NCBI GenBank assembly: GCA_029204225.1
Contig: CM055094.1
Location: 17,848,808-17,912,807, forward strand
Direction: 5' to 3'
DNA from: Diphasiastrum complanatum
Lineage: Eukaryota > Streptophyta > Lycopodiopsida > Lycopodiales > Lycopodiaceae
DNA length: 64,000 nt
The position numbers and the translations under genes are program-made. Numbering within the stretch: position 1 is the first letter of the stretch; each line of letters starts with the position of its first letter. The notes under the pieces were generated by a model, which saw only the letters and a program-made list of their open reading frames with translations, was not told the origin of the DNA and did not search any database. This document shows positions 53,372-64,000 of the stretch, one piece after another.

Positions 53372-56300
53372 ATGGATCAAACCAATGAAAACCCAACATT
53401 TGATCTATCAAACCCATCCAATGTGGCACAAGCTCTTGAACTATTATACCAACAAATTCAAGCCACTAATAAGCAACTTCTTGAAACTGATCAAAGAAAC
53501 CAAGACTTAGAGTCTAGGTTAGCCAATCAAAAGAAACATGTAGTTCCACCTCCTGTAAAAGTGTTTAAGGGGGAGAAGAAGGATAGGAACTTACAAGTGG
53601 TAAGTTCTTGGCTGAATGTTTGGAACAAATACTTGCCATGAACCAATTCCCTGAATCCGAGAAGTTATCCACTGTCACTATGTTCCTTGAAGGAAGAGCC
53701 TTAGTTTGGTGGGATGACTTAGTTGCAAAGGGCAATCAACCTTGTACATGGGATGAATTTTGCAAGCTTTTTAGGGATTATTTTCTACCACTTTTAGATA
53801 ACTATGAACACTTCCAAGAGTTGAGTCATCTAACCATGAATAAAGGTTTGGAACAGTTTATTCAAGATTTTCATGAGTACCTAAATCCACTTTATAGTGA
53901 TATTCCGCCTAAGGTACAAATGTTAATGTTTATTGATGGGTTACCAAAAGATTATCAAGTAGATGTTCGTAGGAACCATCCAAAAACCCTAGAAGATGCT
54001 ATTAGGGCTGCAAAATACTTTGATGACACACCTAAGCCACCTAGGGGTCAACAGCCTAATGAGCAGAAAAAAGGTTTTCAATTTAAGAGGAAGGATAGAG
54101 AAGTTGTTAATGAAACACATCCCAATTCCAACAATCCTAAGAAACCAAGAAAAACTTAAAAAAACATCATGGTGGCAATGATAAAGCTGAAGCTCGTAAG
54201 AAGAACTTGTGCTTCAAGTGCAATGACGAGGGTCACCTTGCACGTGATTGCGTCAAAAAACAAGCTTCAACCTCAGGTAATCTATCTCGAAGTAATGAGA
54301 TGGATGTTTGTTTCCTTAGTTCTTTTGTTTTTGGTCCTAATGACCTTATTTGCATTAAAGGTAAAGCTAATGATCAAGTTGTTAATGTTCTTTTTGACAC
54401 AGGATCCACTCATGACTTTATTAATGTAAATTTGGTGCAAACGCTAAACCTTCTTACCAAAAAAAAAGTGAGAAAAAAATATCGTGTGACAATGGCGTCG
54501 GGAAGTGATTCCGATTTGATGGATTTTATTGTTCCTGATGTTGAATTGCACATTCAGGATTACTCTGAAATACTAGAATTCCATGCTGTTCAATTAGCTA
54601 ATGTAGATATTGTTCTTGGGCAACAATGGCATTTTGATAAGAACAAATCATTGAGAATTGATTTTGTTGAAAAATCTTTATCTTTTATGCATGAGAATTC
54701 TTTAATTAAGATCAAGGCTAGTTTAAGCGTTGACACTAAAAATGTTAACCCTTATTCTAAACAAGAACTTAATTCTATTATGAAGAATTCTGATTTTAAA
54801 GTTTATTTATGTTTTCATAATGATATCATTTGCTCCAATGATGAAGAACTTAACATAAATGCCATGAATATACCCAGTGAGAACACTACAAAATTTGAAG
54901 CCTATAATGAACTTAGGCAGGAATTCAATGATGTTTTTTTAGACCTTCCTATAGGTTTACCACCAGAAAGGACAGTTGATCATAAAATTGACCTAATACC
55001 TGGAGCAATTCCAATTGCACAGCGTCCTTATAGGATGAGTGCATCAGAAGAGGCTGAGTAAATAGGCAATCACATGATTGCCTGAAAAAGGGGTGGGTAC
55101 AACCTAGTAAGTCTCCTTGGGCATCACCAGTGGTTCTGGTGGCCGAGAAGGATGGGACTATAAGGTTTTGCGTCGACTATAAGAAATTGAACAAGGTAAC
55201 CGTTAAGAATAGATATCCACTGCCGCGGATGGATGATCTAATAGACTATCTTGGTGGTGCTGGGTACTTTACCACGATAGATTTAAGATCGGGCTACCAT
55301 CAGATACGCATTAAGGCATAAGATATATCAAAAACCGGGTTTTGAACTCGCTTTGGTCACTACGAATTTTTGGTGTTGCCTTTTGGTTTGACCAATGCAC
55401 CCGCAACTTTCCAACAAATGATGAACGATTTGTTCAGGCCATATTTGGGAAGATTCGTAGTGGTATTCTTAGATGATATCCTAGTGTTCAGTAAGACTTT
55501 GGCGGAACATAAAGAGCATCTTAGGATTGTCTTGGACATGCTAAGAAGGGAAAAGCTCTTTGCCAAGGAATCTAAGTGTGATTTTTTTGCTAAGGAATTG
55601 TCCTACTTGGGGATAAGATTTCCGAACGGGGGGTGGAGATTGAGGCTGATCGTATCTAGAGGGTTAGTGATTGGCCTATTCTCACCACAGTTAGGGAAAT
55701 CAAGTCTTTTTTGGGGTTTGTGGGATTTCTTCGTCGGCATATTCCCCAATTTGTTCGATTAACATTTCCCCTTACCCAGGCCTTGAAAGGCTATAAGAAG
55801 CTAAGTCGGAGGGCTAAGAGTCCACTAGTGGTGTGGACGGAGGATATGAATAATTGTTTTGAGTTGCTTAAGAAAAGTGTCACTTCGGCACCAATACTAA
55901 TCATTGGCGATCCTAATAAGACTTTTGTGGTTAGGACCAATGCCAGTGATTATGCTATTGGAGCTGTTTTGATGTAGGATGGACATCCTGTGGCTTATGA
56001 AAGCAAGAAACTCAATCCTACTCAGTCTAGGTATTGTACCTATGAGAAGGAACTATTTGCAATTGTTCATTCCTTGAAAATTTGGCGACATTATTTGTAT
56101 GGAGCCAGATTTGAAGTTTTGACGGATCATCAGACTCTTCGATATTTCTGTGATGCTACAGATTTAAAGGGGAGGCAAGCTAGATGGGCTGAGATGATGC
56201 AAATATTTGACTTTTCTATACGTTATTGTAAAGGAAGTCAAAATACTCTAGCGGATGCTTTGAGTCGGTTACCGATTATTAATCAATTGTGCTTTACTGT

Positions 56301-56802
56301 TATAGAACCGGAGTTGTTTCAGTCTCTTCAAGGACTATATGAGTCCGATCCTTTTTTTGGAAAGTATTGGCAACAAGTACTTTCGGGGGTCGATTCAGGG
56401 TTGCAAGATTTCTCGAATCAGGGAAAGACTGAAACAGATTTCCTAATTCGAAACAGGATTTTGTTTCGTAAAGGAAAGGTGTGTGTACCGGAGAATGACA
56501 CTGTAAGGGTCCAAATCTTGCATGAGTGTCATGATAGTCCATGCGTAGGACATCCGGGTATACAAAGAACACTTGACTTAGTTCGAAGGCAATTTTGGTG
56601 GCCTAAGATGAAAAGTCAGGTAGAGGCCTATGTACTTAAATGTACTAAGTGCCAGTTAAATAAAGTAGAGAGGCTAAAATCTAGTGGCCTATTACATCCT
56701 TTAGATATTCCTACCGGAAAGTGAGAAAGTATATCTATGGATTTTGTGGTCGGGCTTCCACGTACAAGGAAGGGCCACGATTCGGTTTGGGTCACTGTTG
56801 AT
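53372..56802 (+). pseudogene. Ty3/gypsy gag-pol, integrase truncated (copy 2)
   Basis: In order: gag (53372-53641 and, after a frameshift, 53608-54159; GRALVWWDDLV, FCKLFRDYFLP), zinc knuckle [14 protein letters not shown] (54210-54251), retropepsin [12 protein letters not shown] (~54390), RT in pieces (55130-55762; [24 protein letters not shown]), RNase H (55870-56270) and the integrase zinc domain (56510-56660). The integrase core begins SMDFVVGLP at ~56735 and stops at ~56802 after VTVD. Lesions include a lost G near 55059, TAA 55319-55321, a CGA-to-TGA near 55354, a lost C near 55612, a CAG-to-TAG 55975-55977 and a TGA 56722-56724. The TAA and the integrase TGA are also in copy 1 (506-2426). 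No 3' LTR follows, because the element is joined to another gene's leader. Confidence 0.92.
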
Positions 56803-57135
56803 TTGTACACGTGTCATGCTAATGATTTGGCCGTTGTTTCACAATTTTTATTGCACATTACCGAAACACTTGTACGATTCAGATGCTCTGTATTAGACTA
56901 TATATATGAGTGTCGTTTTTCGAGATCAGTTTTGCATATTGAGTCCAGGAGACCAACCTGCTCCAAAATTAGTACATACAATATCGCTACCACGCGCCCA
57001 ACCGATGGTTCCATAGTCGCACTGCTCCCCTGGCGCGTAGTTCCGATATCCGGAATCGTGTACAATGCATATCCCCATCACGCGTCCAAGTTTACACCGT
57101 TTGTGTCCCCGTCCTAACCGGCGCCTCATATCGAT
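56803..57135 (+). promoter_or_regulatory. Promoter-like leader of the unknown plus-strand gene
   Basis: This is non-integrase sequence between the truncated pol and the ATG at 57136. It contains the TATA-like actatatatatgag (~56898-56910), about 230 bp before the ATG. It is nearly identical to 171-505 in reverse complement. Promoter activity is inferred from the motif and position only. Confidence 0.45.
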
Positions 57136-58717
57136 ATGGCCTCCTCTTCTGCTAGTTCGATCTATGATATAGCTCTTAGTTCTTTCCCTGTTGATGCTGA
57201 AGTTAGCGACAAACAAGCCCATTTTTTGTCCTATTTCTATTTTCAGTTTGACATAGAGAGATTTGTTATTGAGCACAGAGAAGTTTTTCCCAAACTGTAC
57301 AAGGATTTTTATGAGTGCTTGCAACAGGGTACCCTTCTGATGGACGGCCTGAGATTTGTGCATTTCACAGATTTGACTCATGCTCAGCCTAGTGCCAAGC
57401 AAAGGCATGATAGTAAGTTTACCAAACTTATCAATCTGTTTAAACGTGTCATACCCTGTGAGGAACACAATCGAGTATGTCGCTTCGTTCATGAGGGTAT
57501 GGCCTTCGTGTTTTTCTTATCTGCTATTATCCTTGACAAGGCAGAATCTTCTGGGTCGTCTATGATTGGTTTGCCTGCCCCTACTACTCGTGTGGCTTCA
57601 GAGGTTTCCATTATTGATGAGGTTTTAGGAGATGCAAAGGAGGCCAGGCAAGCACAACAATATGATCCTGCCAAGGCTCGTTCTTTGTCTATCTCTCCCT
57701 TATCTACCGCGAGCCAGATTGACCAGAGCAGAACCCTGATGGACCTCCCTATGTACCATATGGACGATATTGCATTCTTGTCCATTAGCGACATCGGAGA
57801 CGTAATGGATCTCAAAGAAGATGAGATATTATCTCTTTTGTCAAGGATTATTTCTGAATTTAGTGATTTTATTGACTTTGATGATGACGACCTCATAGAT
57901 GGCATCGACTATGAGGACCAGGAAGAATGGGCAAGTGGCACATATGCCCTTCAAAGGATATGAGGCTAATATGCCAAGTGAGGAGGAGTTTTTGGCATTT
58001 CAGAAAAGGTATCCGCCACCTCCCATATATACTATTCCAGCTGACCAGCAATCGACCATTATTGCTGGTCACAATTTAGAAGCTGCTGGTGTGATCCAAG
58101 TTGACGAGGAGGATCTGGTAAGTACACCTTCTCACAAAAATCATTTACTATTTAATGTGTAATTGATGATTGATCTGCTAGTTTGACTAACACTTGATTA
58201 TGTGTTGTAGAAAATCGTTGAAGTTGATGCCTTTGCTAGCAGGCATGGAGGATTGAGAGAAAGACAAGGCGGGAGACAGAAGGATGCCTCATTGGCTCAT
58301 TATTTGAAACATTTTGTAAATAACGAAATTTGTATTCTTCATGAAAGGTTTTTTGTGAATGCGGGAACCTTAATCATGGCCATCAAGGCCCTATCTTATT
58401 TTGCCCAAGGGCATAAATATCCAAAAAATACATATAGAATCATTTTTGTCAAAAGAGATGTTGCTCTTAAAGTGTTCAATTACGTGCCAGAAAATGTTCC
58501 TATGAGATCATCTGCTCTGGCAATTCTATCAGGATATATAGATCTGAACAAAGGCAATCCACTCGATTTTTGGATCCGTATGATAGGAAAAAGTTCCTTC
58601 ATGACCACACAACAAAAATTGTCCTTAGATACAATGAAAAAAAATGATTGTACTCTTCTCCATTTAATGTATGTAAAATTTGAGAATTTTCGATTACACG
58701 CATTTGATCTTTATTGA
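57136..58717 (+). pseudogene. Unrecognised two-exon gene, plus strand, one frameshift
   Basis: Exon 1 starts at the ATG (57136) and runs to the donor at 58116/58117 (gatctg|gtaagt). The acceptor tgttgtag at 58210 leads into exon 2, 58211-58717 (TGA). The joined frame would encode about 490 residues. A single extra G near 57928 shifts the frame in exon 1, after which codon-like sequence continues in another frame (HMPFKGYEANMPSEEEFLAF). Exon 1 has an aromatic, charged block (AHFLSYFYFQFDIERFVIEH) and an acidic Asp-rich stretch near residues 250-265. Exon 2 opens KIVEVDAFASRHGGLRERQ. There is no signal peptide or known domain that I recognise. It converges with the gene at 58872-61158, and its 5' end is duplicated at 1-170. 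It may be the second protein of a mobile element. Confidence 0.6.
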
Positions 58718-58871
58718 ATGCCATCAATGGAGAGCAGAGTCAGCGGAGGGAGGATCAGTTGAGGCCCGTTACATGGTGGTGCATCCACGAGCATCTAATT
58801 TTGGCTTATAAATTTACATGCTTTTTTGAATCTTTGATATTCAGTTGATCTTGTTGTGTATCAATTTGAGC

Positions 58872-61158
58872 TCATCTATAAAACCATTGGAATAGCTGAA
58901 TGATGTAACTATTTTTTGAGGATATTCCACCATGTTGTGTATTTCGATGAAATGTTGCTCTTGCCTGCCAATGTGATTTCTCCATTTCTTGTGAGGACCA
59001 TATACTCAAACTGCCATACTTTTTTGCAAAAAATGACGCATGATGCCTTAGTATGTGCTACAGTATCAAAGATTTATGCATTGGTTAGAATCTATCAAGC
59101 AAGCTATACTAAAATTATAAAATTGTAAGACACTATTCAAATGTATCTTACCATGTAGTGGGTGATGTGATCTGAGCCCCAGGCCACACGAATTGCATCT
59201 AAAAACTCTATTGTTGTTTTCTCCAATAGGAGTGCATCTGCATATGAAATTGTGTCTTTTCTAAGCACTTCAACCATATTATCGAGCTTTTTCCAAACTT
59301 TAACCTTCTTTACCCTTGTTGTTTCTTTATCTTCAAAGTCTTATGTTGCAGAAATAACATCTTTCCAAACCGAGTATTGGATTTTAGACGACTCTTTAGA
59401 ATGATTTGATAAAAATTGATGAGATTTGACTCCTCCTATGCTAGGTTTACTGGGTACGTTTCTTGTTTTTCCCGAAAGCTTTTCATCTTTTTGTATTTTA
59501 ACATGGCCTTTATGAAGGCCTGCTTTTGACAACACTTCCTCTAATCGAGCGATTGCTTGTTTTGTTGCTGACTCTGGCTTAGTATTCCATGCAAACAAGA
59601 TATGAAGATATATTAATTTCTCTATGATCCTCACCTCTCCATGAAGTGTACAAATATGCACATTTTGTAAAGGAGTAGTACTGGTTTCCAGTTGGGATCT
59701 TCAATATCTCTTGAAACTCTTGTGTTTCTTGAAATGTCATTTGATGATTTCATACAATATAGACATGGATGTTTCGAATTTGCTCCATGAGATACATTGA
59801 ACATACATTTCAATGACTTCAAGTCTCCAGCTAAATGCCATTCCACAAAAAATTCACCTCTTTCAGGAACACTAAGTACTTTTCCATTCATATGATCCTT
59901 TATGATATCTGGATAACTTGTTCTGCTAAAAATCCAGGAAAGAACATCGTGATCCTCCTTGATAACCTGTTCAACATATGGAATCACAAGTTTTTATATA
60001 TTCAAAACAATTACTAAAAGAAATTGCACATGAATAACAACCGTTTTTTACCTGAAAATGTGCTAGCCACCATATGTATTTTTCTGATTGCACACTGAAG
60101 TTGAGATCCCTTGAGTTTGTTGCATTGCTCAATGCTCCATTCATGAGAGTAATACTTACTCTTTCCAACTTTTGTCCTTTTATAACTTTCGATTCATCTA
60201 GCTTGACCACCAGAATAAGTTTGCTCATACTAACACTTGTAATATTATAGAATGTCACTATAAATCTCAATAAATGATTCAAATCCACAAATAAGTTGCT
60301 GGTAGAATTATATGACAAATTGCCAGACTTTAAATTGTAAATCTCATTGATGTGAAAAGGGATTCCAATGACGTTTTGCATACCCTTATTCAATACATCT
60401 CTCTCCAATCTTATCTGAAAAGGGCAAGGAATGGGAAATTTTCTTACGTGCAATTGTCCAAAAGCCTCTTTAATAATTTTAAATATACTCGCATATGCCC
60501 CCCTGCTAATACCTGAGAAATCACATGCTCCCTGAATTAACGTTCAGTCGATTACCTTACCGACCTCGTTCATCAAAGCCTCAGTGACCTTGGACAAGAT
60601 TCGAGAATACCGATTATTGTCCAATAAAGACTTTGTGGACTTGGTTGTCAATACCAAACTCAGTGATTTTCCAATCAGGTCATTGTCCTTCAGATGCTGA
60701 TTTAAAACCAATGCTGATCTGCAAATGATTATGAAAATCAAGAAACCCAAATAGGACACATAATAAATGTCATGCTACTTCACAAAACTAAAATAAAACT
60801 GATTCAAATCAAATCCTTACTTGAATGCTTGAATCTTTTTTCTCCGTTGGCCTCCATTTAACGAAAGCTCATCAATGTCCTTCGGAATTCTTTTTCACTT
60901 GTTTCTTTTTAATTTCTTATCTAGTATGCGAGTTTCTTCTTTTAACTGGTCATTTGATATACGTAATGTTTGAACAAGTTGTCGGAATTGATCATTACTT
61001 GCATTCAAATTTAATATAATATTATGTAAATGTGCATTATCTTTTTGTATTTGTGATAATGTGGTCTCTTTTTCTCTATAGTCAGCAAGCAAACCATTTA
61101 ACATACATTTTAAACTCTGTATTTTCTGAACAGAGTTTGCAACACCATAAGTCATCAA
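58872..61158 (-). pseudogene. Unrecognised four-exon gene, possibly transposase-like, broken
   Basis: Minus-strand exons: A 61158 (or upstream; ATG at 61155) to 60821, B 60718-60052, C 59966-59152 and D 59057-58872 (TGA). All three introns are GT-AG with compatible phases, about 668 codons in all. Residues ~1-90 form a coiled coil. Then come RRKKIQAF, KLDESKVIKGQKLERVSIT, FSVQSEKYIWWLAHFQ, a block with WHLAGDLKSLKCMF followed by HPCLYC (a CxxC), CTLHGEVRIIEKL, and in exon D YGSLSIWSSQEMEKSHWQAR and HRNTQHGG. Lesions are TGA at 60898-60896 and 60546-60544, TAA at 59343-59341 and a one-base deletion near 59670. The modular blocks with GDL and CxxC recall transposon-encoded proteins of other eukaryotes, but I cannot name a family. 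Confidence 0.65.
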
Positions 61159-61159
61159 T

Positions 61160-61774
61160 CTTTCACAATAACTCAGTAAACCGTTTTATCCGTCACACAA
61201 AAACTTTATTAATTGTGTGATGGATTGGAATTGTGGAGCTTGCATCGAGCTCGGATCCAATGGATACAAACCTCCGTCAATCCACAAATCGTAATTCTTT
61301 CTTTGGTTGATTATGTGAGCGACCATATCAAGCGGATTCTTTCACTACTCCTCTTTTAGTTATCGGAGCATTCTCGACAGGGAGAACAATGTGTAGATGA
61401 AACTGAGACATTCCGCAAACATCAACTGATGAACCCAAAAAAAAAAATAGACACTATTCTTCATCCATGGCATACCGGAGATTCTATGTTTATTCTCTCG
61501 CTAGTTAAAACGAGGAACACAATCTCATTTTCAAATTTGAAAAAGTTAGTTAATGAGCGTCATAGGTTCTTGAAGTCGCAGTTGCATGCATCATAATTAT
61601 GTCATGTTAACTACACATTACTAATAAGGTTAAGCTAAACTGGACCTGAAAGTCTGTCGGAGTTTTAAAATCTGGCATTTTTTTGGTCCTACGTGGCATT
61701 TCTTAGACGGCCCTTTTGATGTATGTAACTCCTCTAATGGTTATGTGAGACAAGACTTATATCTTACCACGCAC
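61160..61774. other. Spacer; upstream region of the minus-strand gene
   Basis: A short hairpin-forming inverted repeat (ccgtcacacaa...ttgtgtgatgg, 61189-61223) lies just upstream of exon A. A terminal inverted repeat matching the left side of the unit (near 56803) was looked for and not seen. There is no convincing coding sequence. Confidence 0.4.
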
Positions 61775-62040
61775 AACTGATTAACAAACGATGCCACAAG
61801 GCCTGGCATGACCGTCACCTACGCAATAAAGATCTACACTTATGTGACCAGGTGCTTCTTTATACATCAAAGAAGCACCCGAGCAAATTGAAATTCAGAA
61901 GTGAGGAGCTGTATATTATTAATAAAGTCTTTTCTAATGGTGCAGTCTAGTTACAAACACTTGACGGAATATTCCTAGACACTTTCGTCAACGGTGGTCG
62001 TCTACGGTAGTATTACGAAGAGTTGTTTTTTGTTGACCCA
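61775..62040 (+). pseudogene. C-terminal part of a Ty3/gypsy integrase
   Basis: The translation AWHDRHLRNKDLHLCDQVLL, SKLKFRSEELYIINKVFSNG and FVNGGRLRRYY follows the conserved gypsy pol C-terminus (WHDxx..GDxVLLY..KLxxRWxGPYxV..G.vxL..FVNGxRLxxY). One in-frame TAG interrupts it. RT and the integrase core are absent upstream. It could be the 3' end of the element that is cut off at 52076, which has the same orientation, but sequence alone cannot show that. Confidence 0.8.
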
Positions 62041-62435
62041 ATTTAACATCTTTTCCCTAGTATCTATTTTACATTTTTTTTGTCTTTTTATTTCCTTGCT
62101 TGTAATTCTCGTTTTGCATGTCTATTTTTAACAACGTTCCTTGTTTATACTTCAAACCATTAATCATGTACTTTCTATGCAGCGCGCATTTTCTTTTTCC
62201 TGTAAATACTCATGGGTCATGGATGTTCTAGGTCCACAAAGGATGGGCTACACCATATGAAATGATTCTCACACTTTTAGCCACCTCATTTCTGTCTAAC
62301 TGGTATCTCAAGCATACACACATTCCTGGAGATACACCTTTTTCATAAGAACTTCTACTCTGAGCCATAGTCATATTTTTCCCCTTGAAGTTCTTCACTT
62401 GCATCAAACAGGACCATTCACTCCTCATGGGGTTT
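62041..62435. other. Spacer downstream of the gypsy pol end
   Basis: T-rich sequence without a supported gene. Probably the untranslated 3' part of the gypsy element. Confidence 0.35.
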
Positions 62436-62795
62436 GTCAAATCTCAACCGACGGGATTCGCTCAAATCTCAACCGACGGGTTTTGTCAAATCTCAACCGA
62501 CGGGATTCGCTCAAATCTCAATCGACGGGATTCGCTCAAATCTCAACCGACGGGTTTTGTCAAATCTCAACCGACGGGATTCGCTCAAATATTAATTGAC
62601 GGGATTTGTCAAATCTCAACCGACGGGTTTTGTCAAATCTCAACTGACGGGATTTGCTCAGATCTCAACCGACAATTTCTGTCCAATCTCAACTGACAAT
62701 TTTTGTCAGATCTCAACCGACGACTTCTGTCAAATCTCAACCGATGGATTTCTATCATATCTCGACTGACGTGACTCCATCACATCTCGACCAAC
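62436..62795. repeat. 24/25-bp minisatellite, core aaatctcaaccgacggg
   Basis: About 14 units of the form tcaaatctcaaccgacgggattcgc (25 bp) or tcaaatctcaaccgacgggttttg (24 bp), alternating irregularly. The right-hand units degenerate to tcagatctcaaccgac.atttctg. Plus-strand ORFs across it are periodic by-products (ISTDG, SQPTG and NLNRR read in the three frames). Confidence 0.95.
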
Positions 62796-63480
62796 ACTTC
62801 AAATTCAAAATTCAATGAGCAAATACATCCCATCACACCCAAACCCAGTCAACAACGTCCATAAATGCCATCACCTCGATGCCATTCGCACCTCAGTGAA
62901 GTGCGAATTTTGGAGTTTTCTGCCGACGATCTACTGGCGATTTTTTTGCTCTTGTATATAATCCTGGCGCTCTCTCGTTCTATGCATATGTCATTGCTTC
63001 CACACCATCTCCACCGACTATCAGCCATCCTAGTGTGTTTCCCAATGGGAGCACCATCACAAACCATCTCCAAACCTAACATCACCAGTGGAAGACAAAC
63101 CATTTGAAACTTTCACATGCTGAGGGGCAGTGTCACGCAAGCATTCAACACGCTTCCGTTACACTATTGAATATCACATTATAATTATAAACACTTTTCT
63201 TTTATCATCTCCATACATCCGTTCCCACCGAAAGCTACTTTCCTTACATCTCCCAATATCTTCACCCCTTCCGCTTCTTCACAAACATATACCGACATCT
63301 TCTTTTTTTCGAACTTCTACCTTCCATCGTTCTTATCCCACCTCATTTTGTTTCAACCCTTTTAGTTCACACCATACTTCGTTTTCCACACATCCTCCAC
63401 ACCGTTCTATCCACACACTTGCCTTCCCAACGTCAGTTCTCCACAGTCCTTTCCTTTCGCACCATAACTCCCTTCACACA
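62796..63480. other. Spacer between two related minisatellite arrays
   Basis: CT-rich plus strand; a long open frame begins at 63130 but its composition (Ser, His, Pro, Leu, Thr) and low complexity give no support for a protein. Part of it may be a retroelement leader. Confidence 0.4.
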
Positions 63481-63483
63481 GAT

Positions 63484-63636
63484 TTTCCATCCCATCTCAA
63501 CCGACACCCTCCGCTCACATCTCAACCAACACCTTCCTCTCCCATTTCAACCAACGCCCTCCGCTCACATCTCAACCGACACCTTCCTCTCCCATCTCAA
63601 TCAACGCCTTCCGCTCACATCTCAACCAAGACTTCT
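63484..63636. repeat. Second 24-bp minisatellite array, same core as 62436-62795
   Basis: About six units alternate between ccatctcaaccgacaccctccgct and cacatctcaaccaacaccttcctc. They share the catctcaaccgac core with the array 700 bp upstream but have different spacers. The array is open in several frames. Confidence 0.9.
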
Positions 63637-64000
63637 TATCCTTATCATCAAGGGACACCTAACGCGGCACCAAGGTACGTCGCACCCAATCAACCACAAC
63701 GCATGGCCTTACCTGCTCCACCAAGGCCAGCCAATCAACAAGTGGCCCATGTAAACTTGACAGCAGCAGAACAAGAATTGCAAATGTCACTTCAATCTGA
63801 GCAGCAGCAATGGTACGGACAGATGAACCATTTATGGATCCTGCCATAAATGAATATGTATCGGCCTATACAGCTCAAACTCAACGTCAAGGTGGAAGAA
63901 ATTACGGCTGCTACGGGTGCGGCGAGGGACACAGAATTGCAGAATGTCCCTACAAAGGACAATATACAACCTTCTGCCAGGATTGAGGTAATGGACATTG
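63637..64000 (+). pseudogene. Ty3/gypsy gag C-terminal part with zinc knuckle (runs off the window)
   Basis: Codon-like sequence begins after the minisatellite (GTPNAAPRYVAPNQPQRMAL; LTAAEQELQMSL). After a frameshift near 63835 it continues as YTAQTQRQGG and the zinc knuckle CYGCGEGHRIAECP (C-x2-C-x4-H-x4-C, ~63916-63957). A TGA replaces what should be the second Cys of a following knuckle (FCQD then stop, 63985-63987). Gag zinc knuckles bind the RNA genome during packaging. The element continues to the right beyond the window and is already non-functional. Confidence 0.75.

Follow-up and report, generated by a model that had tools for sequence, protein, structure and literature searches.

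A probable RAG1/Transib-like transposon of land plants with a histone H3-like gene, seen as a truncated copy in Diphasiastrum complanatum

The V(D)J recombination enzyme RAG1 is descended from transposons known mainly from animals, and RAG2 reads the K4-methyl mark. The locus described here lies in a window of 64,000 nucleotides from Diphasiastrum complanatum (contig CM055094.1; coordinates are those of the window unless a contig or locus is named). Two convergent genes in this window are most probably the right-hand part of a land-plant DNA transposon with terminal inverted repeats (TIRs) and a RAG1/Transib-type transposase, longer copies of which carry a histone H3-like gene; we put the probability of this reading at about 0.82. 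The closest described systems are the RAGL transposons, such as ProtoRAG of amphioxus, with RAG1L and RAG2L. They resemble the present element in the RAG1-type fold, predicted here, in the spacing of active-site and zinc-binding residues, and, as two reports describe (PMC7204232, PMC9435367), in a second gene placed tail to tail with the first. Unlike in RAGL, no kelch or RAG2-like protein was found here, the TIR begins with CATTA instead of CAC, no 5-bp duplication was seen in six copies, the sequence is too divergent for profile detection, and a histone H3-like gene is present. Transib is set apart by the extra genes found here, the different TIR sequence, and the lack of a sequence-profile match to it in PDB. 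Plants have been credited with RAG1/Transib relatives before, as Tao et al. (PMC9435367) report 39 Transib-like proteins from them. Transib was not mentioned among the literature matches listed for ferns, which is not proof of its absence from print.

By their accessory genes, two further systems invite comparison. The VANDAL (MULE) elements of Arabidopsis encode VANC anti-silencing proteins, a likeness in carrying a chromatin-acting protein that holds if the histone H3-like protein is a silencing-escape factor. Their transposase is unrelated, and their chromatin protein is not a histone. Fungal DNA transposons with a TET/JBP dioxygenase, likened here by accessory gene and not by transposase, also bear an epigenetic accessory enzyme (PMC12730594), but the accessory protein is a different one. 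A phrase search of the literature for transposon-encoded histones found none, which does not prove absence from print, and the word “histone” did not occur in a review from 2026 on how plant transposons capture genes (PMC13317346). If borne out, the family would form a branch of the RAG1-like transposons that has gone unrecognised and that brings a chromatin protein of its own; as a high-copy plant family with the predicted RAG1 fold and the RAG1 spacing but without detectable profile similarity, it would extend RAG1/Transib into a branch missed by sequence searches.

Copies and ends of the element

In the 1.745-Gb assembly that was searched, where the two match counts given next are lower bounds and include duplicated contigs, the plus-strand open reading frame (ORF) had at least 141 matches (138 scored candidates; 64-100% identical), and transposase exon 2 had at least 152 (150 scored candidates; 75-100% identical among the matches listed). 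Twenty loci of 10 kb were fetched from the plus-gene match list, one of which, L028 (G000:C3:28668352-28678351), was a duplicate of the window on the same contig, 99.9% identical to 54618-64000. With L028 left out, blastn showed that 16 of the 19 loci begin at 56800-56804, and when 18 loci were compared among themselves, the sequence in common extended beyond 56804 on the left, over a distance that ranged from tens of bases to over 2 kb. L010, L015, and L024 agreed on a left end 3.3-4.2 kb beyond 56804, a part that the window copy lacks. The exact right end was found in nine of the 19 loci, all with unrelated flanks, and in the duplicate L028, whereas L009 had a diverged form. A sequence-only reading of the window had placed the unit at 56803..61230; these limits were not sustained, as 56804 is a truncation point and not an element end, and the unit ends at 61739.

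The left end read CATTACAGGAGTTCTCAAACTTAGAAGGGCC and the right end, inward, CATTAGAGGAGTTACAAACATCAAAAGGGCC, giving TIRs of about 33 bp that begin CATTA[C/G]AGGAGTT.... The alignment of the two ends scored 34, and none of 2000 shuffles exceeded 28. With 200 bases at the left end as query, all 40 of the matches listed started within the first four query bases, and with the right end as query, 40 of the 40 listed ran exactly to the last base. Spans were 6.1 kb (L018), 6.2 kb (C3195), 8.6 kb (L024), 11.7 kb (C12), 13.1 kb (C3), and 13.9 kb (L022), the two ends in L022, C12, and C3 being assigned to one element by position only; several copies thus have internal deletions or insertions. Judged from these sequences, the unit is a TIR DNA transposon, with inverted ends and dispersed copies in different flanks. 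The earlier proposal of a DNA transposon coding for a transposase-like and an accessory protein was upheld by these copies and ends and by the RAG1/Transib-like predicted fold described below.

Within the window, 54882-57305 was repeated in inverted orientation at 2426-1 with 98.4% identity, as had been noticed before. The repeat covers Ty3/gypsy pol and the first 500 bases of the element, and the genome search showed that its left copy runs past the window start with both genes present (C3:17845571-17848995). Because most of the repeated stretch is flanking gypsy, the second left end points to a segmental duplication and not to a second insertion. The junction of the gene pair with the gypsy integrase at the same base in both window copies had early on favoured a different reading, in which the genes are captured cargo of the flanking Ty3/gypsy element and move by retrotransposition; a gene model of Adiantum nelumboides, P0049, likewise joins a gypsy reverse transcriptase (RT)-like sequence (by resemblance, without a Pfam match) to the N-terminus of the transposase. 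This reading was dropped once other copies were read. At 18 other loci, what lies to the left of the junction is sequence common to the transposon copies and not this gypsy, the right flanks differ, the introns are retained, and no pair of long terminal repeats surrounds the gene pair inside the window, so that retrotransposed cargo is largely refuted and very improbable.

Of 20 sequences selected by way of the plus gene (the window and 19 fetched loci), 18 contained at least 70% of transposase exon 4, so the possibility raised earlier that the two genes never travel together was not borne out, and the H3-like gene was present in 14 of the 20 fetched loci. Among the first 30 matches of transposase exon 2, 16 had a listed plus-gene match within 3.5 kb (including four from the window and its duplicates), two had one within 10 kb, and 12 had none. 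The first 30 H3-like matches comprised 14 with a listed plus-gene match and four others with a listed transposase match, all within about 6 kb, one with a plus-gene match in an unexpected orientation, and 11 without a partner. The match lists are incomplete, and the absence of a partner from them is therefore weak evidence; some elements probably lack one of the genes. At one locus, L023, the transposase part is turned around with respect to the plus gene, which is a point against the reading. In a full-length copy, ORFs on the plus strand (L030:3290-4510) adjoin the left TIR and probably represent a further, intron-containing gene; no credible family match was found for them, and a ubiquitin-like fold in a left-end ORF was a guess without a PDB match. 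The compact two-gene unit proposed before therefore stood as a pair, not as a whole element: the window copy is left-truncated, and longer copies contain the H3-like gene and the left-end ORFs.

The minus-strand transposase and its predicted fold

The minus-strand gene extends from about 61326 to 58872, with GT-AG introns at 60820-60719, 60051-59967, and 59151-59058, and faces the plus-strand gene at 57118-58717; the convergence and the clean introns of both were confirmed. Fifteen database proteins matched it at E up to 0.01 (best 1.5e-136), so the gene is not a product of chance. Of these 15 relatives, 11 read on past the donor of the third intron, with V after HYM, HYI or QYM; in P0001 and P0002 the exons on either side of the intron are joined as predicted here, and two relatives end before it. 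P0004 reads through introns 1 and 3, and the second intron of the window was not seen in it. The described coiled coil (a weak Pfam coiled-coil match), the GDLK...HPCLYC block, and the C-terminal EMEKSHWQAR/HRNTQHGG block were all recovered. The gene is inactivated by in-frame stops at 61186-61188, 60895-60897, 60544-60546, and 59341-59343 and by a frame change near 59680, and the plus-strand gene also has a frame change, in agreement with the lesions reported for both. The scans of viruses and prokaryotes gave zero relatives, and the viral structure library gave no match at E below 0.2.

The structure model of the transposase showed a RAG1/Transib-like fold, an RNase H core with a RAG1-type zinc-binding insertion, in a comparison by VIA-align, which does not exclude families that it does not list. 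The acidic residues and C2H2 ligands of P0002 (D411, D508, C528, C531, H761, H766, and E785) followed the order and spacing of D600, D708, C727, C730, H937, H942, and E962 of RAG1, where they serve as catalytic residues and zinc ligands. The window exons retain the same motifs. The distance from CxxC to HxxxxH was 233-234 residues, compared with 210 in RAG1, and a C-terminal block with the pattern ITxYxH....H.P...GS...W...G.E was common to the family and RAG1. Taken together, the model and the motif spacing predict a RAG1/Transib-type DDE enzyme in which an RNase H core is combined with a CxxC/HxxxxH zinc module and with a glutamate that follows the module.

Several results weigh against this assignment. 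A search of PDB with sequence profiles of the family, at E up to 10, retrieved neither RAG1 nor Transib, and profile comparison with RAG1 (hhalign) gave an E of 0.1 and a probability of 0.6%. The RAG1 family PF12940 was absent from the full Pfam tables of nine members and from those 25 families, out of 36, that were shown for 15 members, so that any hidden match would be weak. With the whole core in place of the C-terminal block, 2 (P0001) and 4 (P0002) of 300 shuffles equalled the RAG1 score, and the fourth block sequence, P0051, was equalled by 69 of 1000 shuffles. The glutamate region of the model was of low confidence (residues 776-828 had a predicted local distance difference test score, pLDDT, below 50), and the last pair of VIA-align in this region was 782/963, against 785/962 in the motif register. 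At the ends of the element, the TIRs start with CATTA on both sides and not with 5'-CAC, and no target-site duplication was found next to CATTA/TAATG in any of six copies (L018, L024, L022, C3195, C12, and C3); the proposed check of copy ends thus yielded the inverted repeats without the duplication. The five bases flanking C3195 are reverse complements of each other, which was treated as chance. Inside the window alone, no convincing TIRs of the RAG type (5'-CAC with a 5-bp duplication) were found.

The same TIRs, the lack of a duplication in six copies, and the missing profile match to RAG1 would also fit a TIR transposon from a different superfamily of DDE transposases (e.g. CACTA/CMC-like) that has a zinc insertion like that of RAG1 and no solved structure, RAG1/Transib then being no more than the closest fold among those solved; few transposase superfamilies are represented in PDB. 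Set against this, the C-terminal block matches RAG1 specifically, the CxxC-HxxxxH module is of RAG1-like size, and Pfam transposase models were absent both from the full tables of nine members (E up to 1) and from the 25 weak families, out of 36, that were shown for the whole set of 15 members. We regard another superfamily as unlikely, though a genuine contender. Membership in KDZ/Plavaka was rejected on the same Pfam results. As a RAG1/Transib-type enzyme, the transposase would bind the approximately 33-bp CATTA...GGGCC ends, pair them, cut, and reinsert the element, by analogy with Transib and RAG.

The histone H3-like gene and its possible role

The H3-like ORF lies about 0.5 kb to the left of the point at which the window copy is cut, on the strand opposite to the plus gene, and encodes 359 amino acids in L010. 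The first third is histone H3 (Pfam Histone, E 9.6e-20); across the aligned fold, 42 of 90 residues are the same as in H3.3, and the best PDB matches were H3.3 and H3.Y. The remaining approximately 240 residues had no Pfam match. The gene had 121 genomic matches (113 scored candidates), several with long, stop-free open frames. To obtain the N-termini, the histone fold was used as an anchor and the same frame was read upstream; an earlier count had used a pattern requiring MARTKQT (up to two changes) and was biased towards K4. The N-terminus in 14 loci read MARTKQTAR-LTTFAPPPRPPVQRAVG and variants, close to ARTKQTAR. Both K4 and a leucine at position 9 were kept in all 14 copies. K4 was the only lysine before the first helix in 12 of the 14, the frame being disturbed and one more lysine present in L017 and L020, and no lysine was found where K27 or K36 would fall. 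The start region was missing from the copy in L022.

The H3-like gene could also be a piece of the host genome that was captured passively and does nothing for the element. Host-gene capture by plant transposons is known (PMC13317346). Three of the 14 histone copies (L010, L011, and L024) have a stop at codon 5, and in-frame stops occurred in the H3 part of 4 of 13 copies, in the transposase pieces of 3-4 of 12-18, in plus exon 1 of 10 of 20, and in the histone's extension of 2 of 12. Divergence of the introns among copies about equalled that of the exons, and many copies are decayed. Most of the divergence is therefore neutral decay after insertion, and selection on the present copies is weak at best. 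These points count against a working gene, but the 121 matches, several of them with long open frames, the constancy of K4 and L9, and the median ratio of nonsynonymous to synonymous substitution (dN/dS) among copies argue for one: the ratio was lowest in the histone part (0.26), compared with 0.47-0.56 in the transposase pieces, 0.47 in plus exon 1, 0.61 in plus exon 2, and 0.69 in the histone's extension. In addition, in P0050 of the fern Adiantum nelumboides, a piece of the same transposase is succeeded, on one and the same strand, by a stretch with the histone fold, in the order expected from the element; as annotated, the gene model is probably an artefact, but the two sequences are indeed neighbours. 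Capture without function is accordingly rated as rather improbable. The A. nelumboides gene models P0048-P0051 join transposase pieces to other sequence (gypsy RT-like, transporter, and histone) and are transposon pieces swallowed by gene models.

A role of the H3-like protein as a chromatin aid in some form, suggested by its tail, is a serious possibility at somewhat less than even odds. Where incorporated, the protein could not carry the repressive K9 and K27 methyl marks, because position 9 is a leucine and the K27 site has no lysine, and could carry the active K4 mark. Such a K4-only histone would keep copies of the element expressible or mark open target chromatin, and, borne by a transposon, would be a direct route to escape K9/K27 silencing or to choose open chromatin. 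The full proposal, that a RAG1-fold lineage of seedless plants encodes its own K4-only H3 and uses it to keep its copies in active chromatin or to label open sites for integration, is tentative and on balance doubtful. It invites comparison with RAG2; if true, the element would be a chromatin-coupled RAG-like transposon doing with a histone what RAG2 does with a K4-methyl reader.

The plus-strand gene and the surroundings of the window copy

No domain had been recognised in the plus-strand gene, and a Pfam search of its exons at E up to 1 likewise gave nothing. The protein had a single database relative, P0016, 90% identical over the aligned part. An in-frame stop was present in exon 2 in 16 of 18 copies compared, which leaves the extent of this exon uncertain (Table 1), and the gene may end or splice differently in most copies. 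The model of the ORF was mainly helical with a pLDDT of 35 (very low confidence). A kelch domain was sought in the plus-gene exons, the H3-like ORF, and three left-end ORFs, without a match at E up to 1. An identity of the plus gene with RAG2/kelch gained no support from this result or from the low-confidence helical model. Homology of the plus-strand protein to the extension of the H3-like protein was likewise unsupported, with 78 and 403 of 500 shuffles scoring as well. The plus-strand protein probably partners the transposase or the histone H3-like protein.

Table 1. Features of the transposon copy and its left flank in the window
Feature	Position	Strand	Remarks
Right part of transposon, left-truncated	56804..61739	.	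left side abuts Ty3/gypsy integrase
Right terminal inverted repeat	61707..61739	.	inward reads CATTAGAGGAGTTACATACATCAAAAGGGCCGT
Transposase exon 1	60821..61326	-	N-terminal region and coiled coil; two in-frame stops
Transposase exon 2	60052..60718	-	predicted first catalytic aspartate (KLDE), VQSE block; one in-frame stop
Transposase exon 3	59152..59966	-	predicted second catalytic aspartate (GDLK), CxxC zinc ligands; frame change near 59680, one in-frame stop
Transposase exon 4	58872..59057	-	predicted HxxxxH zinc ligands, catalytic glutamate (WSSQEMEKSHW); stop codon at 58872
Plus-strand accessory gene exon 1	57118..58117	+	ORF 57118-57963, ATG at 57136, frame change near 57940
Plus-strand gene intron, GT-AG	58118..58210	+	relative P0016 reads into same intron
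Plus-strand gene exon 2	58211..58717	+	ends with stop at 58717; extent uncertain
Flanking Ty3/gypsy pol, cut inside integrase	54882..56803	+	outside element

A second copy of the plus gene, resembling the left one of the window, was located near 28.757 Mb on the same contig. Together with L028, it represents either a recent large duplication or an assembly duplicate. The right flank at 61741-61950 had zero Pfam matches; we take it to resemble the C-terminus of a Tat/Athila-type integrase, from a retroelement different from the gypsy on the left. Further to the right, arrays of a 24-25-base repeat (TCAAATCTCAACCGACGGG...) occupied 62429-62771, and a related array was found about 0.7 kb further on, at 63490-63629.

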